A stretch of 64,000 bases of DNA. Source: Ditylenchus dipsaci. Its lineage: Eukaryota > Nematoda > Chromadorea > Rhabditida > Anguinidae. A program made the translations under genes and the position numbers. The DNA lies in contig SADC01001218.1 in assembly GCA_004194705.1 (NCBI GenBank), positions 62,001 to 126,000 of the forward strand, given 5' to 3'. Shown one piece after another: positions 2,618 through 58,239 of this stretch. Position 1 is the stretch's first letter; each line of letters opens with the position of its first letter. The notes under the pieces are model-generated. The model saw nothing but the letters and a program-made list of their open reading frames with translations, was not told the DNA's origin and searched no databases.

Positions 2618-3339
<722 letters not shown>

Positions 3340-26993: not shown

Positions 26994-27004
26994 TAAATAG
27001 ATCG

Positions 27005-27222
27005 GCCCTATACTAGAAGCGGGAGCGTTTTTTGCCTTGGTCCCCTGTTTTTTTCTTCATTTTCGCCTTGGTCTCCCCTGTTGTTTTTACCAATTTTACC
27101 AAATTACAGCAACAAAATGTTCATGAACCACATTTAACATACTGGGCATATAAATTGAAAGTGATGTTACAAACAACAGGGGGACCAAGGCAAAAAACGC
27201 ACCCGCTTCTAGTATAGAGCCA
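27005..27222. mobile_element. Palindromic element with 8-bp TSD ATAGATCG
   Basis: GGCCCTATACTAGAAGCGGG at the left and CCCGCTTCTAGTATAGAGCC at the right. Further pairing: TTTTTTGCCTTGGTCCCC / GGGGACCAAGGCAAAAAA. ATAGATCG lies immediately outside both ends (26997-27004 and 27223-27230). 218 bp, non-coding. It inserted right beside the Tc1 remnant's end. Confidence 0.8.
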
Positions 27223-32684: not shown

Positions 32685-35600
32685 ATGCCTCGAACCAGTG
32701 GAGTGCCGCCGACCAAGAATCGTAACAGTGTTGCGTGCTGTTCACCCTCGTCCGCCTCATCGCCCCTAAACCAACAGCAAGAAGAAGGCGACACTTGCCC
32801 TCCATTTAACCTCAACTTTTCCAATCCAGGTGGTGGTCTACATGTTCTCCAGGTTTGCATACTACATTTTTCTTTTAAAAAATTGACTCACAGCTCACAC
32901 AAAAAAGAATGGATTACTGTAAAAGCTCTCCTTTTCCGGAACTGCCCTTTTTCCTTTTTTCTCCTCCTCCTCATAATTATATTCCAACAGAGGGGAGTAC
33001 CAAAAAGGCAGGCGCCTCTTTGTTGTTGGTGTTGGAAACAACAACAAACTTTGGAATAGTGGCAGTAGTAGCAGCGCCTTTATGGGCAATCAATGTCCAT
33101 CAAAAATCTGAACTTTTTTGCCCGTAATTCTCCTTCGCTTCAATGTTGAGCAGCTAATGGGGTTTCACGGGCTCTCCCCTCCAAACAGGGCACATCTAAT
33201 TATTATTGTGTGGTTGTTTGGTTTATGTGTGTGTGATCATTGGCTTTTATTATTACTTCTTCTTCTCCCTGTTTTCTCCAGGGTGCTACAAAAATAGGGA
33301 TAGGTTGCTGCGTTGTGTGTGTGACTCACTTTTTTGCAGCTATTATCGTGCTTTCAGGGCTGATACATACTTACTTTTGGAATGTCACTTTTCTGGTTTC
33401 TTATTTGTGCTTTTGAGCAGTGCACTTGAATGGTAGGTAGCATGTGGATTTTATAAGTATTTATGTTTCATATCTATAGTAAAATTTAGTTAGTTTGAAA
33501 AGTTATTTGGTCTTACTTTCTGTAAATCAAGAAATCTACGAATTTACTAAAAATTAAAAACGTGAGGAGACTGTTATGGGATTTTTTCAGTCATAAATTT
33601 TGTGTTTCTTGCTTTGTGACCAAAAGACATTGACGACATTTTGGTACAATCAACACTCAATTTAACTTCACTCCCACGGACCAACCCTAAGGTTACGTTA
33701 AATCGAAGGTTGACTGCATTCAAATAATGGTTTTATCTATGCTACATTTATATCATTTGTTTGTATATCATTACAAACGAACAAAAATAATCAAAATTTG
33801 AAAGTGGAAAAATCTTTTTTATTAGCTCCAAAGAAACAATTCGCTTTTGGCCGGAGTATATTATAGCAAGTCCTCCCAAAAGGGATTTTAACTGTTTTTT
33901 GTGTGTGTTAGGGCTTGAAACGTGTACAAAACATGTTTTTAGGTCGGGGACGGCACTTTTTAAAAAAAAATTTTTTGACTAAATTTTGACTTTTTGCCTT
34001 GGGGGACCAAGGTAAACCACATGGAAAGGGTACCTGGACACCTGGTTTTGGTCATTTTTACCTTGTTTTTCTCACTGGACTAGGCAAAAGAGTCTCTTTA
34101 TGCATTTATTGTCAACAGTCTTCTCGGATTCAGCTCTGAGGTAAGTTAGTTTTTGGGAGGACTTTCTATAATATACTTTAGCCTCGCTTTTTGTTGTGAA
34201 ACCGGTTAACACTCATTGTCATCTGTAATTGCAAAAAAGCGTACTCTCTAAGACCATTGCAACCACGACAACACTATTGAAAGTGATTTGAGTGATCACC
34301 ATAGTGCGGATTGTGGGTTGAATAGGAAGGCAGGGATATGTCCAGTGATTGTAAATCCAAATAGTAGCCTGCCTCTTGGCTATGCCCAATCAGTTGACAA
34401 ATTGTCCAACTTCTGTTGGCGGCCCCAAAAGAGGAGGATGACCCGAAAAAGAATGGAAGGTGATTACAACAAGTTAGCGCTGAACACAAAAGAGTAGCAG
34501 CAGAAGCCTCCAAATAAGCAACAGCAGAAGGACAATGTGTCCCCCTCTTTTCACCTTACTTGTCTATAACCTCCATCCCTGCCTTCTCCATCTTGGCCCA
34601 ATTAACACACATCCGATATATGTGGGAGAGGGCAGCGATCTGGGCGGCGAAATTACAGGAATTAAGAGCAAAAAAGGTGTTGATTGGCTGCTGAAAGAGG
34701 GTATTCATTACATTTCAGGACCTTGACTTACATTAGAGATGTGCTTTATTTGGATTGTTTTAGCGCGGAAGGGGTGAAGTTCATTTTCCAAAAATTAAAA
34801 TTGTGCTCCGAATGTAGATGGCTCCCTAAATTTTGTTTGACAATAGAGAGCGGTATGTCTGCGAGAGCCAAAGTTTTATAAAAAAAATTAACTTTACGAT
34901 TTGGCTGCTAATATAAGATCTGTTTAATGCTTATTATTGAGTCTGTTATTCTAATAAAAAAATTTAATTTCGCTACAAAGTCAGCCCGACTAATGCGAAA
35001 AACTCTCCATCCTAAATTACGACAAAAAATTGATTTTATTGGACAGCTTATTTATTATGTGTCATCTACTTATCTACAGACTGGGACAAAATCCCGCCGA
35101 CATTTTTCGAAAATTTGGGCGAGAAATTGCGCGAAATTGTAAATATCCAAAAAAGTTATATAAATGTGTCATGCAATTTTGTTCTTTTCTAATTTATTTT
35201 TTCACGAAATGGTTTGTTGGGAGACTAAAATGTCAACAAGTTATACCCTCAGTTGTTTCACACACATTTGATCTTTTTCAGGACTCTTTTGACAGTGGAA
35301 TGATGATGATGTTGGGCAACGATGAAGCGGAGTGCTCGGAGCCAACGTCCAAAGAATCCACTCCTCTCAGCCTGCTGCCCAATGGCTCTATTGGTTTGAC
35401 TGGCAAGAATGCCAAATCCACAGTAAGCCTACTGCCTAATGGCAAAAAAACCAAAGGTGAGTATTTTCGCTGAATATAATGAGGGTTTTTAAAGGGGCAT
35501 GCTCGCGCCGATGGAATAATTCTTGCATTTTAAATTGGCGGGTACCAGGCACGCCAGAGATTTGAATTTCAAAATCAAATTTTGAAATCATTTTGAGTTC

Positions 35601-38600: not shown

Positions 38601-41600
38601 TGATATAGCAAGCGGAAGACAGGTATTATGAAAAAGCCCATGAACTGTCGACATTAACAGGCACACAAGTGATGCTGTTGGTTGCCTCAGAGACTGGCAT
38701 GTCTACGCATTCGCTACTTCCAAATTGAAACCTATGATTGTGTCAGAGCAAGGCAAGACCCTAATCCAGGGATGTCTCAGCACTCCTGATGGTTAGTCAT
38801 TTTTAATACTAACTTAAAGTCTATTAGTTCTAATTTCAAAGTAATTTTACCTTTGCGGCTTTGAAACATCTTTAAGCATGACTTTTCCTGAAAGCAGTTT
38901 AAAAGATCTTATTTTATGTTGAACATCTAATGGGACAAACTCTATTTTTCCATCAAAAACATACCATGAAACCTCTGTGAAAATCCGAAAACAAAATTCG
39001 TGGGCAAAGCAATTGCGCAAAAGATTTAAAAATAATCTTTTACAGTTCGCAGGCCGTTGAATTTCTGTCTAGGACGTTTTAAGGCATATGTTTGCCTTGG
39101 TACTACTGTTGTTTTTGGCTCAGATTTTTTGCATAAAAATATGTGACACATCTGAGTTTAAAATTTGACCATCTGGTCAAAAAAACTTTTTCGATAAAAA
39201 TATCTGAGTAAAAAACAACAGGAAGAGCAAGGCGAAATTGGACCGATATGTCATATATGGCCGAGTACAGTATACCCTCCTATTTGTCTTTTTGGGAGGC
39301 AGTAGTCAGCCTTTTAAGTCTAACATAGATGTATGAGATGGGTGGAAGGGTGCATCCATAAAAGAGTCGCATGCTCTGCTCCCCCCCTCCTCTTCCATCC
39401 ATCCAATCATATAGAGGGGAGAGGCAGGTATTTATAGGACTACTGTAAACCATTTTAGAAAGTGTTTGTCTCAATTTTTTATTTTTTTTAATACAAGTGT
39501 TTTAGAGAACTTTCCGGATATGGGCGCCATCAAAACAGAGTTCACATTCGAGCCTCCAGCCTGTTCCTCCGCTCCCAATGGACAGCAGCAGCAGTGTATA
39601 GCTTCCTCATCTTCTAGTTCTCGAAAACGCAAGTTGGGACAGCAGGGACAAGCAGTGGTGGAAGCTATGGAATCTGTGAGTTTTGTCACAAACTTAAAAA
39701 AAACCATCGGTATGTAATTTTATAGAGAAGTTCAAGAGATCGTTTTTCTTAGATTTAACTTGATTTTGCTTGGCCAAGCACAAAATAAAACTAAGAGTGC
39801 ATTGGATTATACAGTCGAACCTCGATAAACAAACACCCCCCAATAAGCGGACACTTTCAAAAATTTGGTTGGTTACCAAAAAATTTGCTGAAGTATACCC
39901 CCAATAAATGGACACACGCAACGAACGGACACCCTAAGCTTAGTCCCGTTCGATAAAATTACACTCGGTAAATGGAAACCTTACATATTTTGCAACATTT
40001 TTCATAACTTTGAGGGATTTTCTAAAATTTTCAAATTTTACAAAAAATAATTCGCTGTCATTTTTGCTTTTTTGCGACATTTGTCCATCATAATTTGCGT
40101 TTTTGGTACATTCTCCTTTTGCGAGTTGTTGACTTTGTAACTGTTTATTTTATGTTAAAAAGATTCAAGCGGAAAACACAAGCGGAAACAAAGGTTCTTT
40201 TGCCTAGCTCCAGTGACCAAAACAGGGTGACAAGGTTAATTACGGCGCTACTGGCTTATACCCCCCCCCCCCCAAAAACAGCTACTTTCTTATACCCCCC
40301 CCCCAATCCTCGGACCTACTGGCTATACCCCCCCCCCCAAAATCAAGATTTTTAGGATTTTTATACCCCCGAAGGGGGCGCAGGGGGCTTGAGAGTTAGA
40401 GATGCGCGCACGCACTTACCTTAGACATGATTCCGAGAAGTACACTTGATCATAAATGCATATAGAGTCTATTTTTGCCACGGCTCGAGTTGAAAAACAT
40501 GGTAAAGCAGCTAAAAAAAGTGGCCCGTGTATTATTCCCTTCCCATCCCAATACAGCCCATAATCCCTTTTTAACTGCTTTTCTGGTCCCTTTATGGCAA
40601 AATTATTGCATAAAAATGGTTTTTAGACACTCCCAAAAAGTCGGTTTTTGGGGGGGTATATGACAGTAGGTCCGATTTTTGGGGGGGGGGGGGTATAAGA
40701 AAGTAGCTTTTTTGGGGGGTATAAGCCAGTAGCGTCTAATTTACCTTGCTCCCCCATGACAAAAAGTCGATTTTTAGTGAAAAAATTTTCCCGGAAATGG
40801 TCTTCCCCACCTAAAAACGTGTTTTCTACACATGAAAAGCTTTAAAACATAAAAAACGACATTTATATGATTTTTCGGAATTGATAAAAAACCAGCTATC
40901 TTTTGTTGCGTACTTTTTAAAACAAGCGGTAATTGAGGTTTTCAGTGGTGGTGCAAAGGTGCTTTCATTTATGCTAATCAGTGCTGTGAATAAGGTTTTG
41001 CGTATATGTTTTGCCACATTCCCTAATTTGTTATTCAACTTGTTGCCATTTCTTTTAGTCCAAGCGGCACTTTATCATCTAATTTCTAGTACATTTTTGG
41101 AGGCCGACATTTTTCTAAAATTTAAGAAATTTAGAGTCTGATTTTTAAAAATAGGACGATTCCCAAATTTTATATATGCCCGCACGCTCTAAAATCGATG
41201 TCTTTGATTTTAATATACGGTCGACTAGGCTTGATCTCGGGACGGGAATCCCACGGGATTCCCGGTTTGGGAATCCCGAAATTTTTAAAAATCCCGATCC
41301 CGAACACCTTCGGAAAAATTTTCGAAATCCCGAATCCCGCCGAGTGTTATTCCGAAAATCCCGGAAAAATCCCGAATTCAAATTTGTTTTGTTTCAGTAC
41401 GAAAATAGACTAATTTTTGAAGTGAACCTTATCATTTTCGCTTATGTTACCGTTTTTGTCGTCATTTGTGCTTAAAAATAGTTTTTACCTGTTTATTTCT
41501 GAGATAAAGCATATTATCTGAAAGCTTGATTGTAATGGACAGTGAGATGATATTTTGGGCTTAAACCCTCATCTGTTGCCCAGAAACACTAAATTAACTA

Positions 41601-44600
41601 TCCGCGAGTAACCAGCTGGTTTTTTGCACGATTTTTTATCCTATAAGCACTGGAATGTCCCATCCAAAAAAACTCTACGTTGATAACTTTAAAATTTCTC
41701 GTATAAAGTACGAGAAATTCTACAGTTATCCACGGGATGAGTAAATTGGGCTCATTAAAATTGGGCCACAAATTTGAGTCAAAAGTTCGGGCCAATTTGA
41801 AAAGGCCCGATTTTCTTCTCCCCCTATCGATTATGTTCTGAATTATAAGAAAAATTCCGAATTTATGAATAATTGTATAATTTTAGTATAATTTGTGATA
41901 AAAAATTTAACTGTAAAATAAGACTAAAAACCTGATGCTCCTGTTGTTTTTGAGCTTATGACGGAGTGTATTTTCAGGTTCAGGACCGACTTATAATTTT
42001 GGCGCTACTATAGAATACACCCCCCCCCCCCAAAAAAAATCCGACCTTATAAAATTGCTGTAACTACCCTTGCAAACAACAAGTTTAGGCTTAGCCCTTA
42101 GGCTTGGGGGTAGGCCAGCGTACGGAAGATGTGACTAATGAAGAGTTTGCGCACATTTCCGGGGTCTGGGACATAAATTTGGGTACTTTTTACTTAAGTT
42201 TTAAAAGGTCGGATTTTTGGGGGGGGGGGTATTCTATAGTAGGGTCATAATTTTTTGTATTCTGGAAAACACGTTTGAGTCTGTTTTAACATTTACTGGC
42301 CTGCCATGCGCAAAAGCACAATATAATTAGTAAAAAATCCCTATAATTTCTATAATTTTCAAAAAGTCCTGTACCCAGTCGTATTTGTACCTAGTCGTGG
42401 CACCCAGTAATAATGTATACCTATTTGGGGTTTTACCACTCTAGAGTTGAAATTAAAAAATATAAAATTAATTGTAGGTTAATAAATGTAAAATTTCTCG
42501 TATGATATACGAAAAATTCGAAAACTGTCAACTCTACAGTTATCGACAAGAAATCCCGACGGGATTCCCGTTTTTTGTTTGACGGGAATCCCGAAAGTTT
42601 TTTAAATCCCGATCCTGAATCCCGCCGGACCCCGTCGACGCTTTATTTAACGGACGTCCAAACAGTTAGTTCCCTAACTTGGTCTAAAACTTTTTACCCA
42701 ATTTTGTCGAAAATTTTCATCAACTCTGATTTGTCAGTCTTATCCGAAAATTTGCAAGAATTTCATTTTTGATGGTTGTGTTTTTTTAAGAAAATTCTCC
42801 ATCGATTCAAGGTGTGTCCTCTTTAGATTAAAGCGTTCGTTTAATCGCGAAAATTTGATAAAAATTAGGGTAAAAAGGTGTTGATCCCAGCCGATCCCAG
42901 GAACAAACTTTAAGGCTGTATTTTATTGATTGAAGAAGTTCGAATGTTTTAGTATTAGTGCAAATAAATTATGCGTGTGATTGAAATGGACTTCTTATTC
43001 TTTTTTGTGTATTAGAATGCTAATCCTGCTCAAATTAATAGGTTTAGATGTACTTCTCAGATAGATAGAGTGAGAATTTGATGGACCAGCAACTAGTTTT
43101 ATAGTTGCTGCGTTCATATTTGAAGAATAAAATTCTTTTTGTGACGGATTCCTCTCATACAATTAGGGCATCTCTAACAATAATGATGTGATAATTTTTT
43201 TGTTCTCCATTATCCTCCATCCCAAAACACTTTTTTTCCGTACCACTATTCCACTTATATTTTTAAGGCCAGCGGATTAATTTTTTTCTCTAGTTTAAAA
43301 ATGAGGGCAAGCTAATGCTTTGGGTAAGGTATAAATTAATTAAGTCTTCTGAGGAAAGGACTACTTATTGTTCATCAACCCACATTTATAGCCGATCGGT
43401 ATCTGGCTACAACAAGATAAAAAGAGTTATCAATAAATTCTGAAACAGTGTCGCAGTGTAAAAAAAGCACCTAACAATGGTAGGTACCGATCCATTTGAG
43501 CGACACCAACTGTTCTTGGCTGCTGTTTCTGCCATAAAGCAGGGAAATAGGGAATGGTCAACTATTTATGCTGCAGCACCAACAGCCAACTTTAAATTAG
43601 TATGGGAAGGGGAGGGTTTTACTTATTATTTCTGCTTTTAATAAACAGGGAGGATCGACAGCCTGCTAGTGGGTGCTAGGCACGATTATCTGCTTCTATT
43701 TCATCCTCCTTATTTGCTCGTTGTTGTCCTTGCTAGAGACTGATAGATTCCTTTGTTTGTATAACATAGTAGAAAGAAATTTAAACAAAAAAGAAGGTAG
43801 AGCGATACACTATTTCGGGCGTAGGCATTTAGGCAACTTTGGACAATTTTGATTTCGCGCCTTTTTCAAATTGAGTTTTTTTATTTTTTCATTTGGCATT
43901 TTGTAAATTTTTGTAAATCGTGTTCAAACGACTCCTAACTTAGGAGTCCTAAGTAATTTTTATGAGCTTAAAACAATAAAAAGCTGTTTTATAACACTTT
44001 TCCACATGAAAAACGAAAAAAAAATTTTTGATCAAAATTTAAAAGCGGAAAGTCAAATTTTGGTCAAAAATTTTTTAAATTGGTTTTTTATGTGGAAAAG
44101 TGTTAGAAAACATCTTTTTATTGTTTTAAGCTCATAAAAACTACTTGTTAGTCGTTTAAACACGATTTACAAAAATTTACAAAATACGCCTCCACCGCTC
44201 CCCCCCCCAAGTGAACAAGTGCCCGGTTTGGCAAATAACGTCCTTTAAATTTCGCTAATTGCATATTAAAGGAGGATGCCCGTCGCCGATGGGAACGTGT
44301 CAAAAGGCGGGTACCAGCTCAATTTAAAAAAGAGTTATTCTGAAATACAAAATTGTGGGCACTCTCCCGGTTATAAGTAATCAAAAACATTATTCTTGTC
44401 TTGCAGCATCGGTGGTCTAACGAAAAACGGCGGCGCAGTGTGAGAGTCGATGTTCGGTTCGATTCCAATGGGGTGCATATTTTTTTTCGAGGTTTAGAAA
44501 ATTGCGTCAATTTAATTCTCTTTTGAATTTCAACTGGTACCCGCCTTCCAAAATATTCCCATCGGCGACGGGCATGCCCCTCTGATTAAAAGACAAAAGT

Positions 44601-47600
44601 TAAAATTCAGAGATAAAAGTAAGCAACATAAATGTATACTTATTTGAAATAAGTTATTTCAGTTATTACCAACTATGGTGTCGAGCTCACTTCAAGTCAA
44701 CTCGTGTTCTCCACTCCCCAAACAAGAGTACATGGAAGAGGAGGAAGAGGACGACGAAGAAGATGATGAGCAAGAGGAATATGAGGAGGATTTTGAAGAA
44801 GGCAGACTTCTCCACTTGTTCACCAATCAATTAATGGCTTTAAACAACCTCAAGAGCAAATCAAAGAAGAATCTTCGTCTCCATCTGCCTCCAAAAAAAT
44901 AAAGCTTTATCTAAACTCCACAAGAATAATCGTAACACAACAGCAAATCAAAGCAGTGGAGTGGGATGTCACTCGGATGCACTTCAGCTCCAAAACACCA
45001 TAAAAGAAGCCTTGAAAGCAGCCGCATATCAGCGCCAGAGACAAAACAAGGCTTCTGACTCATCAAGAAATGCGAACATGGCCCAACCGAACCAACAGCA
45101 ACAATTGAATGGAGCAATAAGTCTTATGTTGCAAGGTAGACTTTCATTTTAATATTCACTATGCTATGGCTCACAAAAAACTTATGCATCTTCTACGGAA
45201 AACCAGCTAATTTTAATCATCTTAGATTATCTTAGGCTTGGAATAAAAAAGACTTCATAACGAAAAATCGTGTTATTCGAAGGAGAGTTATCAAAGGGGA
45301 GGGCTTTCATATACGCATCGCCCTAAGTCGACTGTTCTAATCTCGCTAGGTGTATGTCTTACTTATTTTTTCGGTAAGTTCACTGAGTCTAGGGCCAAAA
45401 ACTATCGAGTAATCGATAGGAATTATTTCGAGCACTGCTTTACTATCACCAATTGCTTTAATTTTTCAATTTCGAGCGAATGACCATAAAAATGAAAGAA
45501 AACCAGCCTACATAGTTTTATATCGCCTCAACCTCTACCAATTTTATTTATTTCTCAATTCGCCTAGTAACTTTTTAGAGTCAAAATTTCAGGAGGAATC
45601 AGATAAAAAATTTCCACAGCGGCACACTTCAGCAAAGTAGGTAGTTAGCGAAGGTTTGACCAAGGAAGAAAAAAGTATATTTGAGGGTGAGGACATCGGT
45701 ATTATTTGGAACTGATGTTTTTATCTATTTAAATTTACATGATCATTTACAACCATATGCTAAAATTGACGGCACGAAGGTGAGGTGCATTTAAAGTATA
45801 AGGTTGTAAATGATCATGTAAGTTAAAATTGCTGGAAAACATCAGTTCCAAACATAATACTGAAGAGTTCTGGAACAGCCCTGGGTAGGATGGTAAGGAA
45901 GCGGATTTTGGATTTTGATTAAGCAGGTTTTTGCCTGTAAATCAACTCCAGATGCTGTGAAACCCTAATTTTTAAAGTTTTAATACCATCGTGTAGCCCT
46001 GGATTTCAGCTTTCTAACGAGCTATCAACTTATGTAAATTAAATTCGTAATTTGACGAAGTACGAGCAAAGTACAACAAAAAGGCTAAGGACGAGCAAAA
46101 TACAAGAACGAATACCAGCATTTTTTCGCTCGTACTACGAGTACGAACACGAGTACGGCAAAATTTTCTACCATGATACGAGTACGAGGTCCTAAATTGG
46201 GGGGTAAGAAGAACGGGTACGAGAAAATCACGAAATTCGTTACACTGGTATAGACCCGATTTTCTGAACAATTTGTTCCATACAAAAACTTTTTTCTCCA
46301 ACTTTTAATAACCTCAGGAAGTCAGTTGATAGCATGTTAAAAAGCGGAGATTCTGGGCTACACGTGGGTAAGGGAACTTAGAAACCAGTTTAAAGCTTTT
46401 TAGGATAAAAACAAAGTTATAAAACTTAACGAGGCAAAACAATTTGAGCCTTTCTGAAAATGAGCGGTTTTTTTACTAACCCTGTACACATGACGAAAAA
46501 AACCACACTTTGGTTATTTTTCTTCAGAAAATACCAGATTATCAATTGCTTACTGATTCTCGAGCATAAAAAAAGACTTTGACGTAAAACCTTAAACCCA
46601 AAACAGATTTGGAGTCCCAGAAAAGTACTAATCTTTTAAAACATACATTTCGACACCCTAACTACTCAGATGAATCAAGCAAGCTCACATCAGCTCACTG
46701 TCTAAAAAACAAGATTTAAGGACAACGATAATTTTATTCGTTAAGAGTCACACACAGGGTAAGAGAACAAACATTATGTCAACGGTGGAAAGTAGAAAAG
46801 TCTCAAAAATTGAATTCAACGAAATTCAGCGACGGAGCTGCTGGAAGATAGCATTCAAGTCCGAAAAAGCGTCAAGGAACTTAGCAGAGACGTCAGCCAG
46901 CTTGTTCAGCGTATCTGAAAACAAACGACCAATAAAATACCTAATTAGAAAACATCTATACCCTGCGTGATCTTAGGCAACGAGGCAGCAACTGAAATCG
47001 AACAAAAAATTACTTGAACGGATAAAATACAGTCACAAACCATCAGTAGAGGATCTCTCCGGCACTAAATCCCTTTTCCACACCCTTAGCTTGGTCACCA
47101 AAAGAAGGAAGCGAAAAGGACACAGAATTTCTTCTTCCACCTGCTTCTTCCTGCTTCAGTTCCTCCTGCTTCACACCTGAAGTATGACTTTCCGTCGGGA
47201 TGACTGAAAAGAAAATAACCAATAAACGGCAAAAAAAATAAGGAACCGTCCTGACCATTTCTGACATAACTTCCACCGTTGTAAGTTCCAACAGGATGAA
47301 CAGTGTTGCCATTACCTGAAAACGAGTCACTTTTATTGCAAACCATAAAAACCGGGACCCACCTAATCCTCCGCGATTTGGAAAGGAAGGAGTCGAAGTT
47401 CCACGGCCATTGCCCTGCCGATACTTTGATAGCTACTGTCAGCAGAAGGTTCATCGAAAGTAGTCAGCACTCCTCCACGACCGTACTGATGGCTGCCTGA
47501 ACCAGATCTGTCGAATGCCACACCTCCACGGCCAGTCTGAAAACTGCCTGAACCATCAAACACAGACTGCCCACGGCCACCACGAGCACCACGCTGATTG

Positions 47601-50600
47601 ATAAAATTAGGATTGCCTCCGCTTTGATTGAAAGACGATGAAGTGCTCTGGTAATTACCGCGCGAGATGCTGACATTTCTCTGGTCTTCCTGAGGATTCA
47701 CGCTGCTAGTAGACACATTCACCTGACCTGAATAAGAGCCACGGCCACGCAAATTTTCACCTCGGAAGTTGGCCATAATCTTCAAAGTTCGATTGAGCTA
47801 CTCGGATTTACGAAAACTGAAAAGTACGGATACATATTTTGTTGCCTCAGCAGCGATGACGAAAATTGAGCATGCAAGGAGCCAAGAAATGACAAGTTTG
47901 ACAACAGTAGGCCAACGATTTTGAAGTTTTCAAAGGAGAATTGCAGGTCGGCGCAAAAAATTTTGAGGCATCGACGTTACACGGCTTTTCAAAACGCCCG
48001 AAAGTGTGTCATTTAGCTTTTTAGACGTGTCTGCATGGCGCAGTGGGTAAAGCTCTTCGTCACACCATTTACATAGCAAAATAGGCTATTTTCCTCGGGC
48101 CACGAGTTCGATCCCACCCTCTGGTACATCCGATTTTTCACAAAAATTTTTGCAATTTTTTATTCACCCACTCGACTTAAAGGGCATGCCCACGCTAATA
48201 AGAGGTGGTGCGCGGAGATTCAAAAAATTTTCCTAATCATTGAACTTCTGTACGGATTTTTCAACTTGGTTTCCAACCAAACCATACCTAAAATTAAATT
48301 CTAGGCCTTGTTTTGTTAGAAACCAAGTTGAAAATTCTTACAGAAGTTCAACGATTGGGAAAAATTTTTGAATTCCGGGCACCACCTCTTATTAGCGTGG
48401 CATGCCCCTTTAAAGGGCATGCCCGTGCGTTAAGGCGCGAACCAGCAGTTTTTTTTTGAGTTTTTTCTTATCGTCCCATTTTTCACTCGTTCGGCGTCAA
48501 ATCTGATATAGATGACCTTATACTGCTTTTAAAACTAGACAAAAAACTTAAAAAATCTAGACGGAACGAATGTAAAAATTTATCGAGAAAGAAAAGAACT
48601 GCTGGTTCGCGCCTTTTCCCCCCATCGGGCACGATCATGCCTCTTTAAAATCGAAAAGTAGACATAGGTCATAGAGATCAGACTTTCAGCTTTTCTTATA
48701 AAATTTTGAGTACAGGCCCGATGAAAGTCCAGAATTCACGTCAAATACAAGGCAAAAGTTGAAACACAACTTCTTTTTGTATACAGTTGCGGACAATTGA
48801 TTGGCGTCAGCATCTTGTTGATATCTTGTTGATTTTGAATGTAAATATAAATTTTCGAAAAACCAAATACACGGTTTTGTAGAGCTCTTCAAGGGCTACA
48901 AAACTGTCATTACACTTTTCTAAAAAAAATAATTTTCTTGGTTTGTTTTGGGCAACTTTTAAGAGCGTTGCATTTTTTTGCCCGACAATTGATTGGCGTC
49001 AGAAAGTTTTATTGGATAATAACATAACAAACATAACAAACATAACAATTTACATCAACAATAGCTTGACAATGTAAGCCCTGAATCTTAGCTACAATTT
49101 GGTAGGTCAAACTCTTATTTTGATTATTTCGAGAAAAGTTATGACCATCAATAAAAACGTGTCGATTTCTAGTCAAAATCAAAGTAAATGGAAGGAAAAT
49201 GGTTGTTCGGTCGCATAAATACTGACTTTTCTTGAAAGTTTCAATATCGAAAGTTATGAGTTAATGCACTATTTGAAAGCTTAATAATTTTTCTACAAAA
49301 TGACATACAGTGCGTATCATAATGATAGGAAAACTTGATTTTTTGCGAAATTGTTAAGTTTTTTATTCAAAAAATTCCTACTTTTCAAACACAATGTTGA
49401 ATTACATCAAAATAATGCTATTCGCAATGAAAAAAAAATCGTTTGTTTTGACTGGAAATTTTTTACGCACCATAAACCGAAAAAATGCCGTATCATAATG
49501 ATAGAAACTTTTTGTAAAATGAACTTTATTGATGTGATAACTTTTTTTTTGTTCACGTCTATTGTCAATGCTTGATTACTGTTTGTAAACCCTGTTTCTC
49601 AGCTACAATTCGGTTGGTCAAACTTATTTTTTGGTCATTATGAAAAAAGTTATGACCATCAAGATAAAAGCGTCGATTTCTAGTCAAAATAAAGGAAAAT
49701 CTAAGGAAAATGACTGTTTAGCCACATAAATCATAGCTTTTCTCAAAAAAATTTTGATGAAAAAATCACATTCAATGCACCATTCGAAAGCTCTTTCATT
49801 TCTCTACAAAATAACATGTCCAAAGTTTTTTTAGAAAAATACAGGACTGAGAAACGGACGGTACTTTTTTCTGCCCGCTAATTACTTCTTTCTGCCCGCT
49901 AAATCTTTTTTTCTGCCCGCAAATTTGAAATGCCGCTAATTACTTTTTTGCCCGCTAAATACTTTTTTCTGCCCGCAAATTACTTTTTTCTGCCCGCAAA
50001 TTTTCGAAAAAATGCCCGCAAATTTTTCTTCAACGGGTATAAAGCTAATTCACTGTCCTCTACTCAATTTTTCTCATCCTTTTGTGGTTTTCATGTGTGT
50101 TTGAGCATCTTGTAGTGGGCTGGGCCCAGAAAATTGATCATTGCTTGGATATTTCGGTGAGCCTTCTTTAACTGTTATTAGGCTGAATTTCTTGTTGTTT
50201 CTTAGCCGATATTTGACTTCTAGTGATTGAATATTCAGGTTAATGTCACGTACTTAAGTGAGGGAATCTCAGCAGCATTGTCCAACAGTTGTGGAGTGCC
50301 CGTATTGGTCTGCTTAGAATCTGTTTAATGGCTTTAAACGTTATTTCCAGAATATTTAATTCGGGATTTTAGGTTCGCTGATCAGGTAACTTTTTCTTTA
50401 TGACATGATTCGCGTTTCGATTGCATACAGCGTGACAGGGTCGTCAATGCACGTAGCGTCAATTGAAAATATTTTAGTCCACTTGGAAAATATGAACTTT
50501 GTCACGCGGTATGTGGTGCAACTGCCACTCTCTATGTGCCTTCGTGCTCCACCCACAAGACAGCATGGCTAGGCCTGTGTAACATAGTTGTCGGAGCACG

Positions 50601-53600
50601 TTAACTTCAAGAGGCTGCCTAGCGAGAGTTAGGCTTTTCGAGTATTTCAGTTCATTCATTTTAAGGTCTTTCTCGTGGATCAACAACAGTCAAATGTCAA
50701 CGAAGCCAGGTCGATTTACTGACGTCAAATTTTCCTTTTTAAAGCCAACCGTGATGATAAGTAAGTAATTTCCTGAAATTTCTGTGATATTTTCACTTCT
50801 TTCAACTTCAACCATCCGTTTCTCAGCCCTGTGCAATTTTCAAAAAAAGCCTGATATGTCATTTTGAAGAAAAATTATTAAGCTTTCAAATAGTGCATTA
50901 ACTCATAACTTTTGATATTGAAACTTTGGCGCTACTTGAATATACCCCCCCCCCCCCAAATCAACTTTTTTTAAAATGTTCCCAAACACCCTATATCGAC
51001 CTAAAATCGCCTCAGAAGCTCAAAAAAGACATTATTTTTGAGTTCTGGTCAATAAAAAATCGAGTTTCTGGACCACCCAAAATCACCCATTTGACCATTT
51101 TTCAAGGGATTTAGGTCTGTATTTGGGTGGAAATGGACTAAAAAGGTGCCGACTTCTAACAAAAAGGAAGATGTTGAACATAGTTTTGTTGACTGGGGCC
51201 TAACGCATAAATAAACTCTGGCATGCATACATTTTTATGCATCCAGAGTCACTTTCGAGTGATTTGCGTCTAAGATATGTGGGTGTGCGCATCTCAACCC
51301 CAAGCAACCAAGCCCCCTGCGCCCCTTCGGGGCGCAGGGGGTTTGGTTGGTTAGAGATGCGCACACCCACTTACCTTAGACATAATTCCGAGGAAGACTC
51401 TTGAACAAAAATGCATTTAGAGACTATTTTTGCTCAGCTCCAGTGACCAAACATGATAAAACAGGTAAAAAGTCAAAATTCAAAAGTGTCCAAAATTCGA
51501 TTTTTTATTTACCAGAACTTAAAAATAATGTCTTTTTTGAACTTCTGAGGCCATTTCAGGTCGATATAAGGGGTTTGGAAACACTTTTAAAAAAAGTTGA
51601 TTTGGGGGGGGGGGCGGTATATCCAAGTAGGGTCGAAACTTTCAAGAAAAGTCAGTATTTATGCGACCGAACAACCATTTTCCTTCCTTTCGAGTGAAAA
51701 CGTGTGGAGAATATAGTTATTCCTTAAAAATCTGACTTAAAATGTGAAATTTGTCTAATTTGGAAGAAAAATTTTCGTTGTCCTTGGCGTCGTCGTTGTC
51801 GTTAGCGCTGTCGTTGGATTTTTTATAAATAGGTCGTCGTCGTTGGCGTTGTCGTTGGCGTAAAAGTGCCTTTATAAAACATTTTTTCCAACGACGATGA
51901 CAACGTTTATAAATGAGCCATTATGTACCTTTTTTCCAGAGTTTCCAGATTTTTTGTTAAATAAGGACATTATAAGGTATTTTGGCAAAAATTTGCTATT
52001 TTATTCAGTGCTTATCGCTCTTTTGCTGCCAAAAAAAAGATTTTGACTAAAAATTTCAAAAAATAATAAGATTTGGAATCCCAAAATGAGTACAAATCTT
52101 ATAAATAAGGACGGGTCGTAGCCTTTTGGCCCCTTTTTTCCATTTGTGGCCCCTTTTTCCATTTGTGGCCCCTTTTTTCCATTTGTGGAAAAAGGGGCCA
52201 AACGACTTACGTAAGTCGTTTGGCCCCTTTTTCCACTTTTTGAATTAGCGCCTTTTATATATTTCTATTGTTTGTGTGCTTTTCATATTCTTGGCTCTAG
52301 GTAAATGTTCCCGCGGTGTATACTCCTTCTGGTAAATTTCACTACGGTGAATTCCGCCTCTGGTCGCTAAATTCCTCAGCAAAGATTTTCAACTTAATCT
52401 TTTTTCTTGTAAAAACTCCTATTATTTAAAGTGTTTTTCTATAATCCAGCATCCGTTTTATTGCATGATTTGGGTTATGCACTAACCCAACCAAATGGTC
52501 GTCCATTTGGTGAAAATATTTTCTTTATGTGTTTTGGGTTTCCGAAATCCGTTTTTTGCAGTAATTCGAGCATTCTAAAGAAGGTTTTACAATAGTAAAA
52601 TGCCATTTTCTAGGGTGATTTTGAGTTTTGGTAAAATAGCTAAAATGACAGTTTGGAATTTACAGAGTATATTCAGATTATCGGAATAGGTAAAGGTAAT
52701 AGCTTTTTGAAGCCGAAAAATAAGAGAGAGAAAAAATTGACCCAGGTGGGCATCCAAATCCACCACTTGCACCCGGATATGGACCCGGACTGAGTAGACC
52801 GACCAGTTAACTTCCTCATTTCGACATATCTGCCTAGGTATCCACTTACCAGAGGTATCCATTCGTCTCCAGGTATCTTCATTCACCTAAACCATTTGAG
52901 CATTGGGTAACACTACCTGGCTACTACTACCTAGGCATTTCCACCAGAGTACCGTTACCTAGGTAGAACAACCTGAGCACCACCTGATTACCCTTCGGGA
53001 TACGTGATTAATGCAGAACTGGGGCTCCTGCAAGTCAAATTGCTGTTTTAGCATTATCAAACCGTGTTTGGTACACGATTATGGATAGGTAGAATGACTT
53101 TTAGTTAGTTTCAGCTAAATCCAAAATTTTGGATTTTAGAGATGGATACCCATTTAGAGGAGGTACCAGGTGGTTCCCTATCCACCCTGAGGCTTAACAG
53201 TCTTATAAAAATTAGTTTATGACAGTTATTCAAGAAAATAATAATAAAAGAACAACAAACTGCAAAAAAAAACAATAACACTAAAAAAGGCGCGTATTTA
53301 CAAACGATTTACGTAAGTCGTTTGGCCCTTTTTTCCACAAATGGAAAAATGGGGCCAAACGCCCCTACGCCAATAAGGACGTCTGGCACCCTGCTTTTGT
53401 CCCATTCTGGAACTACCCTTTGTTCTAACTACTTAGGCTTAGGGGTAGGTCAGCGTATGTTAGGACGAACTAATAAAGGTCTTACGCAGCTTTTCCGAGG
53501 AAATCTGGGACTGGGACCAATATTAGAGCGCTCTTTATGAGGTTTTTAAAAAAAAGATTTGGGACGAAATGGGACAAACGGTACATAACTTCAACGCACC

Positions 53601-55862
53601 AAAATTTTTAGAATTTCAAACGGTCATAACGGTTATAATTCTTGAAGTGATGGCGAAATTCTATTTTTACGCATCGATTTATCTTCAGACCAAAATTAAT
53701 TTGGTATATGTTGTCAAATACACAATCTTTTCTTGGTCCACCCTGTGGTTTGGGCTGTGTTTTTAATTGGCTGTCCAGATCTGGATCTGGCCAAAGCCAC
53801 AGGTAACGAAATTAATATCATAATATAAATTTCTTGTCGAGTTTTGCTACTGTTGAAAGCATTAAGCTGATTGTATTCCTTTATTTATTTTCCCTAACAA
53901 CTGACACACATCTAATTGTAGGCATTGTAAACTGTGTACCCTCTTCTTCCTGTTCCCCTGAGCCTATTTCTTGCACTAACCCCAAGAAAAGAAGCACTAA
54001 TACATCAACTACATCTAGTAACCACTCCTCCAACTCCTCAACCAGCACTATTCTCTATCAAATGCCTCAGGGGTGGTCTACTGTGCTAGCCCGAAGATGG
54101 TAATTTTCCTCAAATTGTCTTATTGAACCAAAAAGTGATCATTTCAAATTCTTATTTTGCTCTAATTTTTCAGCCTCCGGATTAAACACTAACGGAAGTG
54201 CAGCCACCACTAGCAACCAATCCGGTTCAAATGCCATGATGAATTTGCTGCTGAATGCAGCCAATTCTTCTACATCCAGCACCCCTTCTGCCAGCAATGT
54301 ATTTGGGTCCAGCAACAACTCCAGCCAGCAGCAACAAAGCGACCAAGAAAGCAATGGAAATGTGTTTCAGCAATTATTCAGCGGTTCCAGCGGGTTCCCT
54401 TTGGCAATATGACTTTTCAACAGGTAGTTTTGACACAAATATGCCGTACAGTAGATGCTCCGTATAAAAGCTGTTGAAAGCTTGTTATTGTCCACGGCGT
54501 GTCAAATCGGTCAAAACACCAAATCGACATTTTTCTAGTCAAGACAAAAAATTTGAACACGATTAAATTTGTAGTAACTTTCTCATATTTTATGAACTTT
54601 GTATTCTTATTTGTAACTCATGCTTATATGTGTCCTATATGAGCTATTTTTAAATCAGTGAATTGCCCAGGAATCGCTCTATCGATTGGTGAAAAAATTT
54701 ACCTAATTTTATCAGAAATTCAAAGATTTTGAACAAATAGAAGTTTGAATTGGCGGTGGCAGAGTCAGCTCGCCAACTTTAAATAGCTCGTTCTCAGTGA
54801 TTTCTCCCGGAAAAATAATCTGTCCTACAGTTTTGTAGTATTTTTCACCAGCTTTCTGCTGGTATCTTTGGTTTTTTCATATGAACACTTTATGCGGAGA
54901 TCGAACAAGTTTTAGTAAATTTACACTTTTTAGGTATAATTAATGGACAACGATCAGAAAAAACCTCCAACTCAGTCCTGATTATTCTTAAACCTTGTGC
55001 TGATGGTCTTGTTGGATAGCCAAGAGACCAAAGATCATTTTGACACCAAACTTGTAAATAAAACATGAAAAAATGGGGTAAAAAATAGGGTATGCACCCA
55101 AGCGGATTTGAACCTATGACCTAGACAATGCGTATATAAAAGTACGTCCTCCCTTTAAATAGGGGAAATTGAATTTGAAACAGACTTTTTAGACGAGAAG
55201 TATCTATAGAAAATTAAAAAAAAACAGTATATGAATATTTAGTGCATAAAATTGAACATATTTTTTGTCAATGGTATTTAAAAATGAGAAACTATTTTGA
55301 ATTTTCATTAAAACAGAACGCCAAGCCCGATTTGGTCATTTGACGTGTTTGACACGCCGTGTGTCCTTATAACGATCGTCTATTACATATTTCCTGTATG
55401 TTTCCTTCCTCTTTTTCAATTAGTTCAAGATAATTCTTGATCGGAATTTGGTCAAACCGAAAAGACCATCGTGTTCAGCATCAAATTCTGAGTTAGGAGT
55501 CCCAAAAGCCACGCATTGGAGTCGGAGTGTTAAAAGTGAAATCAGTAGAGCTCCCGTTATTAAAAGAAAACGCAAACAGCTTTGAAAAATATTGACTCTG
55601 CCTGAGATGCAGACCCTCAAAGTCAACGGAGGGTCTCTTATTAGAGAAAATACGGTATCAAAAAGTCAAGAAAAAATAGTAGAGCCTTTTTAAAAATAAA
55701 GACTGGAGGTTAAAAAAATAAACAAAAATATCACTACTTATAAAATTTAATATTGGATATAAACTTCTGATTATTTGTTCACATAAAACAATACTTAAGT
55801 TTTTTAGATCCTCGCCACTGCTGCCCTTTCCCAACTGGCATCAGAGAATGCGAAGAATTGAA
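32685..55862 (+). CDS. SRF: Serum response factor-type MADS-box transcription factor
   Basis: Nuclear transcription factor binding CArG boxes in promoters of cytoskeletal and muscle genes (known of the family). Coding exons: 32685-32852, 35282-35456, 38498-38558, 38609-38791, 39506-39675, 44663-45135, 53922-54099, 54174-54423, 55809-55862. The MADS domain spans exons 3-4: [54 protein letters not shown]. Exon 2 has a Met run and two LLPNG motifs, exon 6 a Glu/Asp-rich segment. The C-terminus has [11 protein letters not shown], a Ser/Asn/Gln-rich tail, and likely ends [17 protein letters not shown]. Exon phases agree only if two missing bases in exon 4 (near 38635 and 38695) and two in exon 6 are restored; exon 8 of this copy also lacks one T (near 54410) that the second copy has. 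Introns 2 and 6 (3.0 and 8.8 kb) are filled with foldback elements. The last three exons are repeated at 60518-62456. Confidence 0.92.
35488..38107. mobile_element. 2.6-kb foldback element in SRF intron 2
   Basis: Two ~715-bp inverted arms (35488-36202 and 37391-38107) around a 1.19-kb spacer. The ends read TTTAAAGGGGCATGCTCGCG and its near complement, with TTTAAA at both edges. The arms are near-identical, producing mirrored ORFs. The spacer has no recognised gene. Part of the arm (CTATGTGCCTTCGTGCT, ATGGCTAGGCC, GAGGCTGCCTAGCGA) matches a diverged segment at 50395-50640. Confidence 0.9.
38102..38341. mobile_element. TTTAAA palindrome abutting the foldback element
   Basis: TTTAAAGGCCTGACCTCTTC at the left and GAAGAGGTCAGGCCCTTTAA at the right, with near-perfect inner arms (CGGTGGTCCCCGCCAATTCA / TGAATTGGCGGGGGACCACC). 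It shares its left TTTAAA with the end of the 35488-38107 element. Confidence 0.85.
39804..39960. repeat. Solo pogo/Tigger-like terminus
   Basis: ACAGTCGAACCTCGATAAAC followed by repeated ATAA.CGGACAC units (near 39842, 39905, 39920). Only one end is present. Lies in SRF intron 5. Confidence 0.55.
40244..40736. mobile_element. GGCGCTACT poly-C/poly-G hairpin element A
   Basis: 493 bp. Left end GGCGCTACTGGCTTATACCC with poly-C; right end poly-G with GGGTATAAGCCAGTAGCGTC. Flanks TTAATTAC (left) and TAATTTAC (right) match as an 8-bp duplication if one T is missing on the left. Extra inner poly-C/poly-G pairs (CTTTCTTATACCCCCC / GGGGTATAAGAAAG) and part of the ~240-bp unit (GCGCAGGGGGCTTGAGAGTT) are inside. 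Confidence 0.85.
41219..42640. repeat. Paired GGGAATCCCG arrays
   Basis: 41230-41375 and 42548-42635 hold clusters of self-complementary CGGGAATCCCG/CGGGATTCCCG units followed by AAATCCCGATCC. The second part is in direct orientation in both. Element B (42001-42246) lies between them. The rest of the interval is AT-rich and without a gene. Confidence 0.55.
42001..42246. mobile_element. GGCGCTACT poly-C/poly-G hairpin element B
   Basis: 246 bp; left end GGCGCTACTATAGAATACAC with poly-C, right end poly-G with TATTCTATAGTAGGGTC. Exact 8-bp duplication ATAATTTT at 41993-42000 and 42247-42254. This is the shortest copy and lacks the ~240-bp unit. Confidence 0.88.
43905..44187. repeat. Palindromic element
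   Basis: TTTTGTAAATTTTTGTAAAT near 43911 and ATTTACAAAAATTTACAAAA near 44164, with paired arms GAGCTTAAAACAATAAAAAG / CTTTTTATTGTTTTAAGCTC and ACACTTTTCCACAT / ATGTGGAAAAGTGT. Non-coding. Confidence 0.82.
44265..44590. mobile_element. TTAAAGG..ATGCCC palindrome beside SRF exon 6
   Basis: TTAAAGGAGGATGCCCGTCG at the left and CGACGGGCATGCCCCTCTGA at the right. Second-level arms are GGCGGGTACCAG / CTGGTACCCGCC. Belongs to the TTTAAA/GCATGCCC family. It ends 73 bp before the exon at 44663. Confidence 0.78.
45702..45865. repeat. Short inverted repeat
   Basis: TATTTGGAACTGATGTTTTT and CATGATCATTTACAACC on the left pair with GGTTGTAAATGATCATG and AAAACATCAGTTCCAAA on the right. Confidence 0.75.
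46826..47776 (-). CDS. RGG/Gly-rich protein nested in SRF intron 6
   Basis: Minus-strand gene within the 8.8-kb SRF intron. Exon 47363-47776 starts [20 protein letters not shown] and has [22 protein letters not shown] and YGRGG, i.e. arginine-glycine motifs typical of RNA-binding proteins. Exon 47256-47315 encodes [15 protein letters not shown]. Exon 47043-47203 encodes [20 protein letters not shown] and [18 protein letters not shown], followed by a stop at 47043. A further exon at 46826-46914 ([20 protein letters not shown], stop) after a good TTTTCAG acceptor suggests an alternative or true C-terminus. One frame change near 47415 resembles the other homopolymer losses. No RNA-binding domain beyond RGG is seen. 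Confidence 0.6.
48025..48125 (+). other. tRNA-like sequence with A- and B-box matches
   Basis: TGGCGCAGTGGG (A-box-like) and GAGTTCGATCCC (B-box-like) about 55 bp apart. The T- and D-stems do not pair as in a working tRNA, so it is more likely a tRNA pseudogene or the head of a tRNA-derived SINE. Confidence 0.4.
48176..48414. mobile_element. TTTAAA palindrome (first of a back-to-back pair)
   Basis: TTAAAGGGCATGCCCACGCT at the left and AGCGTGGCATGCCCCTTTAA at the right. Inner arms TTGAACTTCTGTACGG / TTACAGAAGTTCAACG pair imperfectly. Inner sequence resembles 38102-38341. Confidence 0.85.
48409..48649. mobile_element. TTTAAA palindrome (second of a back-to-back pair)
   Basis: TTTAAAGGGCATGCCCGTGC at the left and GGGCACGATCATGCCTCTTT at the right. 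Shares TTTAAA 48409-48414 with its neighbour. Interior resembles 28813-29052 (CGAACCAGCAG, GATGACCTTAT). Confidence 0.82.
49071..49825. repeat. Diverged ~520-bp tandem repeat
   Basis: GAAAAGTTATGACCATCAA, GTCGATTTCTAGTCAAAAT and AGCTACAATT.GGT.GGTCAAAC occur first at ~49080-49315 and again at ~49590-49825. The first copy also has an inverted counterpart at 50858-50927 plus 51635-51690, which is interrupted by element C. Confidence 0.7.
49860..50035. repeat. Tandem array, TTTTTTCTGCCCGCTAATTAC unit (20-22 bp)
   Basis: Eight imperfect copies of a CTTTTTTCTGCCCGCAAAT-type unit. Non-coding. Confidence 0.8.
50395..50640. repeat. Dispersed repeat shared with the foldback arms
   Basis: CTCTATGTGCCTTCGTGCTC, ATGGCTAGGCCTGTGTAACA and AGAGGCTGCCTAGCGAGAGT match, with divergence, sequence in both arms of the foldback at 35488-38107. 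Repeated again at 57010-57255 in copy 2. Confidence 0.7.
50928..51634. mobile_element. GGCGCTACT poly-C/poly-G hairpin element C (copy 1)
   Basis: 707 bp. Left end GGCGCTACTTGAATATACCC, right end GGTATATCCAAGTAGGGTC. Exact 8-bp duplication GAAACTTT (50920-50927 and 51635-51642). The target was an older inverted repeat whose intact form is at 49200-49330, so the empty site can be read directly. The ~240-bp unit with the GC hairpin lies in the middle (51178-51420). Confidence 0.92.
52128..53357. repeat. GGCCCCTTTTTCCA inverted-end element
   Basis: Left: repeated GGCCCCTTTTTTCCATTTGT and AAACGACTTACGTAAGTCGT (52128-52225). Right: ACGATTTACGTAAGTCGTTT and CCACAAATGG..GGGGCCAAACG (53305-53357). 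The interior (52230-53300) holds the CTACTACCTAGGCA repeat and no gene. Duplicated at 58730-59955. Confidence 0.65.
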
Positions 55863-55997
55863 GAAGCGCTATATCAGATTCCCCTCTGTTCCAGTCAAAA
55901 ATAATAGAGCCAAATGTGTCCACTGGATAACCGATATTTTTTGATTGATAAATGTGTGAGTGTAGTTAAACCGAATAGTGTTACTTAGCTTTGAATT

Positions 55998-56222
55998 GTG
56001 CCTTTTTCTAATTTAAATATCAGCCTTGAAGCTAAGTTGAACCACAACAAACTAATAAAAGAATTTTATTCACAGTTATCCACACTTATTGAGGGCACTG
56101 ATACAAACTTTCTGGTATTTTTAGCAAAAGGCGATCAATCAGTTGTAGTCCACTTTCGAAGCTGTGGTCTTGGTTGGATATTTCATAGCGCCAGCCTCCG
56201 AATCTTTAATTTAAATGTATAA
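55998..56222 (+). CDS. Short ORF after SRF (unrecognised)
   Basis: 74 codons including [20 protein letters not shown] and [17 protein letters not shown], amphipathic and charged. It starts 136 bp after the presumed SRF stop and has no clear splice context. In copy 2 (62594) the frame shifts after HFRSC because of a G-run difference. May be a fragment of a downstream gene or 3' UTR. Confidence 0.3.
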
Positions 56223-56654
56223 TCAAAATTGTTTCCAAACATTGAAACGGTGATTTTGAAATTTTCACAATACAGTCGAACCTGGACCGGTAGCAATAAT
56301 CAGCGGATAAAATCCGCGGATAGAAAAATCCGCGGATTTTATCCCGTAGCAATAATAGCCGATAAAATAATCCGCAGCTGCGGATATTATCCGCGGATTT
56401 ATCCTCTGCTCAGGATAATATCCGCGGATTTTATCCTCGGATAAAATCTGTGGATCACTCATGTCAATTTACGCCTCAACCTGATTCACGTGTGAATTCA
56501 CGCCTCAATCTGATCCACATGTGAATTCACTACTCAGTCTGATTAACATGTAGAATTTACATGTTAATGACATGAGAGTCAGATGGAGGCGTGAATTGAC
56601 ACGTGAATCAGATAGAGTCATGAATAAACATGTGGACTTATTGACATAATTGGA

Positions 56655-56908
56655 TACCGTATTTCCTCTAATATACCGACATGTCGGTTTATTTTTCAAC
56701 CCCTCAAAAATCGTGAAAATTTTGGGTCGATCTCGACAATTTTGGATGAAGATCCAAAATCGAAAAAGCGGAATCGATAGAGCTCGTGGGAACTAAGAAA
56801 ACGCAATAAATAGCGATGTAAATTTCTTTCTTTGGACTGAGATACGGACCCTCGAAGTAGGGGTGTCGGTTTATTAGAGGGTGTCGGTATATTAGAGGAA
56901 ATACGGTA
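56655..56908. mobile_element. TACCGTATTTCCTCTAATA element (copy 1)
   Basis: TACCGTATTTCCTCTAATAT at the left and TATTAGAGGAAATACGGTA at the right, inner motif GTCGGTTTATT/GTCGGTATAT near both ends. Related to 4315-4549. A solo end of the same type is at 55636-55654. Confidence 0.8.
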
Positions 56909-57540
56909 TTATTTAATCTAGACCTTCTTAGAATCTGTTTAATGGCTTTAAACGTTATTTCCAGAATATTTAATTCGGGATTTTAGGTTCGCTGATCAGG
57001 TAACTTTTTCTTTATGACATGATTCGCGTTTCGATTGCATACAGCGTGACAGGGTCGTCAATGCACGTAGCGTCAATTGAAAATATTTTAGTCCACTTGG
57101 AAAATATGAACTTTGTCACGCGGTATGTGGTGCAACTGCCACTCTCTATGTGCCTTCGTGCTCCACCCACAAGACAGCATGGCTAGGCCTGTGTAACATA
57201 GTTGTCGGAGCACGTTAACTTCAAGAGGCTGCCTAGCGAGAGTTAGGCTTTTCGAGTATTTCAGTTCATTCATTTTAAGGTCTTTCTCGTGGATCAACAA
57301 CAGTCAAATGTCAACGAAGCCAGGTCGATTTACTGACGTCAAATTTTCCTTTTTAAAGCCAACCGTGATGATAAGTAAGTAATTTCCTGAAATTTCTGTG
57401 ATATTTCACTTCTTTCAACTTCAACCATCCGTTTCTCAGCCCTGTGCAATTTTCAAAAAAAGCCTGATATGTCATTTTGAAGAAAAATTATTAAGCTTTC
57501 AAATAGTGCATTAACTCATAACTTTTGATATTGAAACTTT

Positions 57541-58239
57541 GGCGCTACTTGAATATACCCCCCCCCCCCAAATCAACTTTTTTTAAAATGTTCCCAAACA
57601 CCCTATATCGACCTAAATCGCCTCAGAAGCTCAAAAAAGACATTATTTTTGAGTTCTGGTCAATAAAAAATCGAGTTTCTGGACCACCCAAAATCACCCA
57701 TTTTGACCATTTTCAAGGGATTTAGGTCTGTATTTGGGTGGAAATGGACTAAAAAGGTGCCGACTTCTAACAAAAAGGAAGATGTTGAACATAGTTTTGT
57801 TGACTGGGGCCTAACGCATAAATAAACTCTGGCATGCATACATTTTTATGCATCCAGAGTCACTTTCGAGTGATTTGCGTCTAAGATATGTGGGTGTGCG
57901 CATCTCAACCCCAAGCAACCAAGCCCCCTGCGCCCCCTTCGGGGCGCAGGGGTTTGGTTGGTTAGAGATGCGCACACCCACTTACCTTAGACATAATTCC
58001 GAGGAAGACTCTTGAACAAAAATGCATTTAGAGACTATTTTTGCTCAGCTCCAGTGACCAAAACATGATAAACAGGTAAAAGTCAAAATTCAAAAGTGTC
58101 CAAATTCGATTTTTTATTTACCAGAACTTAAAATAATGTCTTTTTTGAACTTCTGAGGCCATTTCAGGTCGATATAAGGGTTTGGAAACACTTTTAAAAA
58201 AAGTTGATTTGGGGGGGGGGCGGTATATCCAGTAGGGTC
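57541..58239. mobile_element. GGCGCTACT poly-C/poly-G hairpin element C (copy 2)
   Basis: Duplicate of 50928-51634 with the same GAAACTTT flanks (57533-57540, 58240-58247); 8 bp shorter, through homopolymer differences. Confidence 0.92.

Follow-up and report, generated by a model that had tools for sequence, protein, structure and literature searches.

The insertions designated E1, E2, and E3 in a 64-kb stretch of Ditylenchus dipsaci DNA (the window, meaning the whole stretch analyzed) are MITEs, short nonautonomous DNA transposons with 8-bp target duplications. The reading that we favor, at a probability of roughly 0.55, is that they are cut-and-paste MITEs of one large clan, inserted with an 8-bp stagger by a transposase acting in trans, which would be supplied by a Merlin/IS1595-type element. 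New here are the asymmetric ends, the 5-base code that matches between the two ends of an element, the presence of up to three C-run modules at an end, and a core that occurs with several different codes and also inside unrelated ends that likewise make 8-bp duplications. A literature search with the terminal strings and the architecture, judged by title, gave, among the papers listed, no title pointing to a poly-C family. Neither matched code classes on C-run modules nor one core behind unrelated end sets with 8-bp duplications appeared in those titles or in the available parts of PMC8101967, PMC3169594, and PMC3573991. The elements and related features of the window are as follows.

40244..40736, forward strand: E1, a poly-C MITE with code GGCTT, three C-run modules per end, and a partial core; flanks TTAATTAC at 40236-40243 and TAATTTAC at 40737-40744, with one T absent on the left
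40375..40517, forward strand: portion within E1 of the same core as that of E3
42001..42246, forward strand: E2, a short poly-C MITE with code ATAGA at both ends; perfect 8-bp duplication ATAATTTT at 41993-42000 and 42247-42254
50928..51634, forward strand: E3, a poly-C MITE with codes TGAAT/TGGAT; perfect 8-bp duplication GAAACTTT at 50920-50927 and 51635-51642
50946..51067, forward strand: left arm of the E3 hairpin, an inverted repeat of 51493-51614 (86% complementary)
51493..51614, forward strand: right arm of the E3 hairpin, pairing with 50946..51067
51161..51471, forward strand: core within E3, common to other classes and to elements with unrelated ends
57541..58239, forward strand: E3b, the second copy of E3, inside copy 2 of a 6.6-kb tandem repeat
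49235..49242, reverse strand: empty counterpart, related to the E3 target site, in which the two flanks meet at one GAAACTTT (left flank 97% identical over 73 bp)
33849..34183, forward strand: 335-bp element with unrelated ends GGCCGGAGTATATT / GGCTAAAGTATATT and duplication TCGCTTTT, holding a 91-bp piece of the core at 34056-34146 (about 77% identical)
27004..27221, forward strand: 218-bp MITE with duplication AATAGATC and GGCCCTA/GGCTCTA ends, which show homology to the ends of Merlin locus L032
7553..7811, forward strand: further copy of the core

The earlier note had described E1, E2, and E3 at these positions, with their termini, their C and G runs, and their target duplications, including the single T missing on one side, and all of these details were borne out. 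It had also suggested that transcripts could form very stable GC hairpins; E3 as single-stranded DNA folds very stably, at -213 kcal/mol (z of -30.7 against 20 shuffles).

The ends were counted in the whole assembly (227 Mb in 1,359 contigs) with a strict pattern, GRCSCTACT-N5-ATACCCCC, and with a CTAGT version that requires four C's. There were 3,220 CTACT ends and 1,520 CTAGT ends, 4,740 in total, and the reversed-pattern controls gave 0 in both sets. Thousands of strict ends together with empty controls exclude chance. Target duplications were evaluated in the window plus a sample of 20 stretches of about 10 kb that were chosen by a left end only; a right end was sought within 2.6 kb of each left end, and the flanks were not used in pairing. 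Of 29 left ends, 22 were paired with a right end and 7 had no partner. An exact 8-bp duplication flanked 15 of the 22 paired copies (14 independent copies when E3b is set aside), and allowing one mismatch at 8 bp raised this to 17, compared with 1.6% for random flank pairing. None of the 22 had an exact match at 6, 7, 9, or 10 bp. The five failures were E1, L021, and three same-flank copies (one at L010 and two at L013). Thus, the hairpin transposon family with poly-C/poly-G arms proposed from the window alone is present throughout the genome, and the flanking 8-bp duplications that were to be looked for there were found.

The poly-C elements are short, with inverted ends, a target duplication, many copies, and no transposase gene, as is characteristic of MITEs. 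Among the first 100 ends listed, the 26 convergent CTACT pairs spanned 240 to 1,844 bp, and the longest copy fetched (1,844 bp, the longest strict same-code pair listed) had no open reading frame of more than 82 amino acids overlapping it. A search with a single arm yielded 40 scored copies, out of 2,963 first-look candidates, that were 96 to 100% identical, which indicates that part of the family is young.

The second copy of E3 was rejected as an independent insertion. It sits in a tandem repeat of about 6.6 kb (copies at 50313-56850 and 56927-63445) whose copies, over 6,553 aligned columns, have no substitutions and 49 single-base indels, all but one of which fall in homopolymers. The sequence at 57541-58239 is thus a copy of E3, as the earlier note had it, but one made as part of the repeat and not by a separate transposition. 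The repeat either arose by duplication very recently or is an artifact of assembly. Because 48 of the 49 indels fall in homopolymers, the lengths of homopolymers and C-runs in this assembly are unreliable, including the missing T of E1. The same indels, and the possibility that the repeat is false, would fit an explanation in which the C-runs and the copies are themselves assembly artifacts arising from sequencing error. However, at least five C's occur at the same place in all 3,220 CTACT ends and at least four in the 1,520 CTAGT ends, at many loci with different flanks. Errors in length do not create C-runs at a fixed position genome-wide, and the artifact reading is already contradicted by these end counts and by the 8-bp duplications of the paired copies. 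It is extremely improbable.

Each end consists of G(G/A)C(G/C)CTA(C/G)T, a 5-base code, ATAC, and a C-run. The C-run does not directly follow the terminal nonamer, as had first been thought, but begins after the code and ATAC; among the 30 ends of the 15 elements measured, 24 had it starting at position 18 and six at positions 20 to 22. The tips are asymmetric, with GGCGC at the left and GACGC or GACCC (GACSC) at the right. Among the first 100 ends listed for the CTACT set, all 26 adjacent convergent pairs were left/right, and the code agreed to within one base in all 26, versus 17% of random pairs. For the CTAGT set, also among the first 100 ends listed, 20 of 21 pairs were left/right and one was right/right; 19 of the 21 agreed to within one base and two differed by two bases, but random pairs in this set agree in 77% of cases, and therefore the CTAGT pairs say little about the code. 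The codes seen include CGGTT/CGGTA, GGCTT, GTAAT/GTCAT, TGCAT, TGGAT, ATAGA, ATGAT, and AGCGA. Each end has one to three C-run modules about 30 bp apart, and each module contains the tip motif. At several places in the ATGAT class (among 100 of 132 occurrences listed), two or three copies of one 18-mer in a given orientation are accompanied, about 0.8 kb away, by the same 18-mer in the opposite orientation. The second module of E1 and of L009 has a different code, TTCTT, and thus code homogeneity is not complete.

This architecture suggests how the elements might be mobilized. A DDE transposase encoded elsewhere would bind the modules, one to three per end, that are formed by CTA(C/G)T, the 5-base code, ATAC, and the C-run; it would cleave at the asymmetric tips, GGCGC at the left and GACSC at the right, and would insert the element, usually in AT-rich DNA, at target cuts staggered by 8 bp. 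Elements with matched end sets would multiply, and elements with mismatched codes would not. The C-runs could have grown by slippage at a conserved stretch of C's.

The supplier of this transposase would be of the Merlin/IS1595 type, which is the likeliest mobilizer, though unproven. In the available part of PMC8101967, Merlin elements are defined by GG tips and an 8-bp duplication, and very imperfect Merlin ends are on record. The poly-C elements resemble them in the GG of the left tip, the 8-bp duplication, and the inverted ends. The genome has 124 matches to PF12762 (Merlin, DDE_Tnp_IS1595), and Pfam confirmed the domain in all three Merlin loci tested. The ends of the Merlin loci here are of the GGNNCTAGT type: of six fetched with both sides, three start with GGTTCTAGT, one with GGTACTAGT, and one with GGTTCTTGT, so that five of the six begin GGNNCT(A/T)GT. 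At the sixth, L034, GGCTAAATATGAGTATAACCACCCC is arranged in tandem modules that are rich in C, and the target duplication, TTTTTTTG, is 8 bp long. The ends of Merlin locus L032 were far more similar to those of two MITEs beginning GGCCCTA, one at L010:7806-8059 and one at 27004-27221 of the window, than shuffled sequences were in eight of eight comparisons (0 of 2,000 shuffles in seven and 3 of 2,000 in one). Both of these MITEs have 8-bp duplications.

The duplication of 8 or 9 bp expected of Merlin agrees with the poly-C elements (exact 8-bp duplications in 15 of the 22 pairs and 9-bp ones in none), but the 5'-GG-3' given for both ends in the available part of PMC8101967 is present at the left only, with GA at the right in the strict pattern. 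The poly-C elements further differ from Merlin in their coded, repeated C-run modules and in the weak similarity of their ends to Merlin ends (permutation fractions of 0.019 to 0.093 at four lengths), which is little greater than their similarity to MULE ends; comparisons with L032 and its MITEs were mixed (0.0015 to 0.69 in 24 comparisons). Poly-C ends were found at none of nine Merlin loci, six with both sides and three represented by short downstream stretches. The larger, transposase-encoding copy that the earlier note had proposed searching for was not found among these six loci and three downstream stretches or among 11 MULE loci. Given the weak end similarity, the GA right tip, and the lack of an autonomous copy, the appropriate statement is that the family works like a Merlin-mobilized MITE, not that it is Merlin.

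When the coordinates of poly-C and related ends were compared by eye with those of transposase matches, no autonomous copy was seen among the matches listed, and there was one lead, on contig C51. A GGCTTGAC...CCCC end at C51:309368, of the type that flanks the core in other elements, faces a PF12762 match at C51:311561 (to 311686), 2.2 kb off. The interval C51:309368-311686 may be an autonomous copy, with a proximity that is about at chance level. At C119:50408-54821, a GGCTTGAC/GGTAACAC pair of ends lies 3.8 kb apart, and a PF12762 match is located just outside the pair.

The main rival to Merlin is Mutator, which was absent from the list of possible ancestors (hAT, P, or Merlin) that had first been drawn up. 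The mobilizer could be a Mutator-like (MULE) transposase and the poly-C family a foldback-type MULE derivative like Tm1 of root-knot nematodes. There are 115 matches to PF10551 in the genome, and resolved MULEs have arms made of tandem units. A clade represented by L037, L040, L041, and L043 is a serious rival, since these four, the members with both ends resolved, all have 8-bp duplications; its ends, GGNTGTACY, match GGCGCTACT at up to 7 of 9 bases, and the tips of L035 and L041 are asymmetric too. The clade shares the 8-bp duplication, G-initial ends, and repetitive arms with the poly-C elements, but its units are of a 15-bp type without C-runs and its ends depart from GGCGCTACT past the first nine bases. 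The similarity of the ends was no better than permutation (0.10 to 0.46), and none of the 11 MULE loci fetched had poly-C ends of its own. A duplication of 8 to 11 bp, mostly 9, is expected for MULEs; the local ones have 8 or 9 bp (9 bp at L036 and L039), and the poly-C elements have 8. Long repetitive arms are typical of the Tm1 group, and Tm1 has asymmetric 7-bp terminal motifs, mostly 9-bp duplications, and repeat units of 13 to 15 bp, according to the available part of PMC3169594. Compared with that description, the poly-C elements are alike in having composite arms with repeated motifs, asymmetric tips, and mostly MITE-like copies, and they are unlike it in duplicating exactly 8 bp (9 bp in 0 of 22) and in having modules, about 30 bp apart, that hold the tip motif itself. 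Overall, mobilization by a MULE transposase is unlikely.

Two MULEs were considered as autonomous poly-C elements and rejected. The MULE at L039 is nested (1033-3493) with a 9-bp duplication of its own, GATTTTTAG, and the poly-C elements at L023 close on either side of the MULE remnant there. The poly-C element that hosts the L039 MULE, at 986-3837 of that locus, has code ATGAT, a degenerate left tip, and the duplication GAATGCTC.

A transposase from another superfamily that makes 8-bp duplications (hAT, P, KDZ, or one that is undescribed) also appears improbable. hAT transposition makes 8-bp duplications, and matches to hAT PF05699 are very common in this genome (150 scored of 2,005 candidates). 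However, hAT ends are of the YARNG type, starting with YA, and the poly-C ends, GGCGC and GACSC, lack this start. The P-element domain PF21787 had 0 matches here and also 0 in control genomes. Of the three ancestries first suggested, Merlin is the best, though unproven, and hAT fits poorly.

A core of about 300 bp connects poly-C elements with one another and with elements that have different ends. With the middle of E3 (51161-51471) as the query, the core was found in the fetched DNA, whole or partial, in poly-C elements of codes CGG, GGC, GTA, TGC, TGG, and ATGAT. It was also found in three elements with unrelated ends.

L018:2954-3834: core element with ends GGTAACAC / GGCTTGAC then TTTACTTGACCCC; duplication CTGAAAAT
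L025:6148-7043: core element with ends GGTAACAC / GGCTTGAC then TTTACTTGACCCC; duplication CAAATTTT
L019:2520-3254: core element with ends GGCACTCATTGGGTTGGGGG; duplication CTAAATTC

The main alignments of the core across different ends were 82 to 94% identical, and the outer ends had no match. Despite differing codes, the CGG and GTA copies and one GGC copy had cores 96 to 97% identical to one another; a second GGC copy in the comparison, L017:1422, was more divergent (88 to 89%). Because the same inner body lies behind unrelated ends, the elements seem to change ends as they evolve. Recombination or conversion among palindromic copies might equip an old core with new sets of ends that match. 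We tentatively propose that one conserved core has been repeatedly reequipped with complete new sets of ends and that the codes are parallel recognition specificities within one transposase superfamily, a record of coevolution between transposases and ends. Transposase specificity would then change as a unit, and the body and the 8-bp chemistry would be kept.

It is possible instead that the core is itself the mobile unit, inserted separately into several MITE families whose ends were never exchanged. The core is more frequent than the poly-C elements: a conserved 33-mer of it has 4,318 exact occurrences in the assembly, and a strict poly-C end faces this 33-mer within 1.5 kb in at least 24 of the first 100 listed. 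Ends of the GGTAACAC/GGCTTGAC type number 224. The left edge of the core is also at a similar place in several comparisons. However, homology between the CGG, GTA, and GGC classes and the GGTAACAC-ended elements continues beyond the core into the inner arms, and among these three poly-C classes it reaches the outer arms. Separate insertion of the core is considered somewhat unlikely. Galileo, a P-superfamily element of Drosophila, has long repetitive arms, subfamilies, and chimeras with the internal region of another subfamily, which are ascribed to exchange, in the available part of PMC3573991; its duplications are of 7 bp, and two-arm chimeras without matching duplications are reported there. 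The poly-C elements are similar in their long repetitive arms, subfamilies, and chimeric copies, but in their case a single core lies within unrelated sets of ends that retain 8-bp duplications.

Should the codes prove to be true recognition specificities, the thousands of copies in the genome would amount to a natural record of which end sequences belong together, and the coevolution of transposases and ends would become testable. The survival of MITE families after their transposase is lost would be explained if a core can outlast its sets of ends. Families of MITEs defined by internal sequence alone would conflict with those defined by ends alone.

Two proposals about the core were rejected. 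The sequence of the core hairpin is conserved, but its covariation term was +0.81, with double changes in 3 of 57 pairs, and the hairpin was not accepted as supported by covariation. No known RNA reached Rfam gathering scores in the whole window, and the stretch tested had only weak matches, below gathering scores.

Two other features of the window involve transposons. At 22712-24630, there is a 1.9-kb element with the 8-bp duplication GATTTGAA and arms of tandem units of about 15 bp that resemble local MULE arms. At 25821-26258, an open reading frame resembles, by eye only, a piece of a Tc1/mariner-type transposase.
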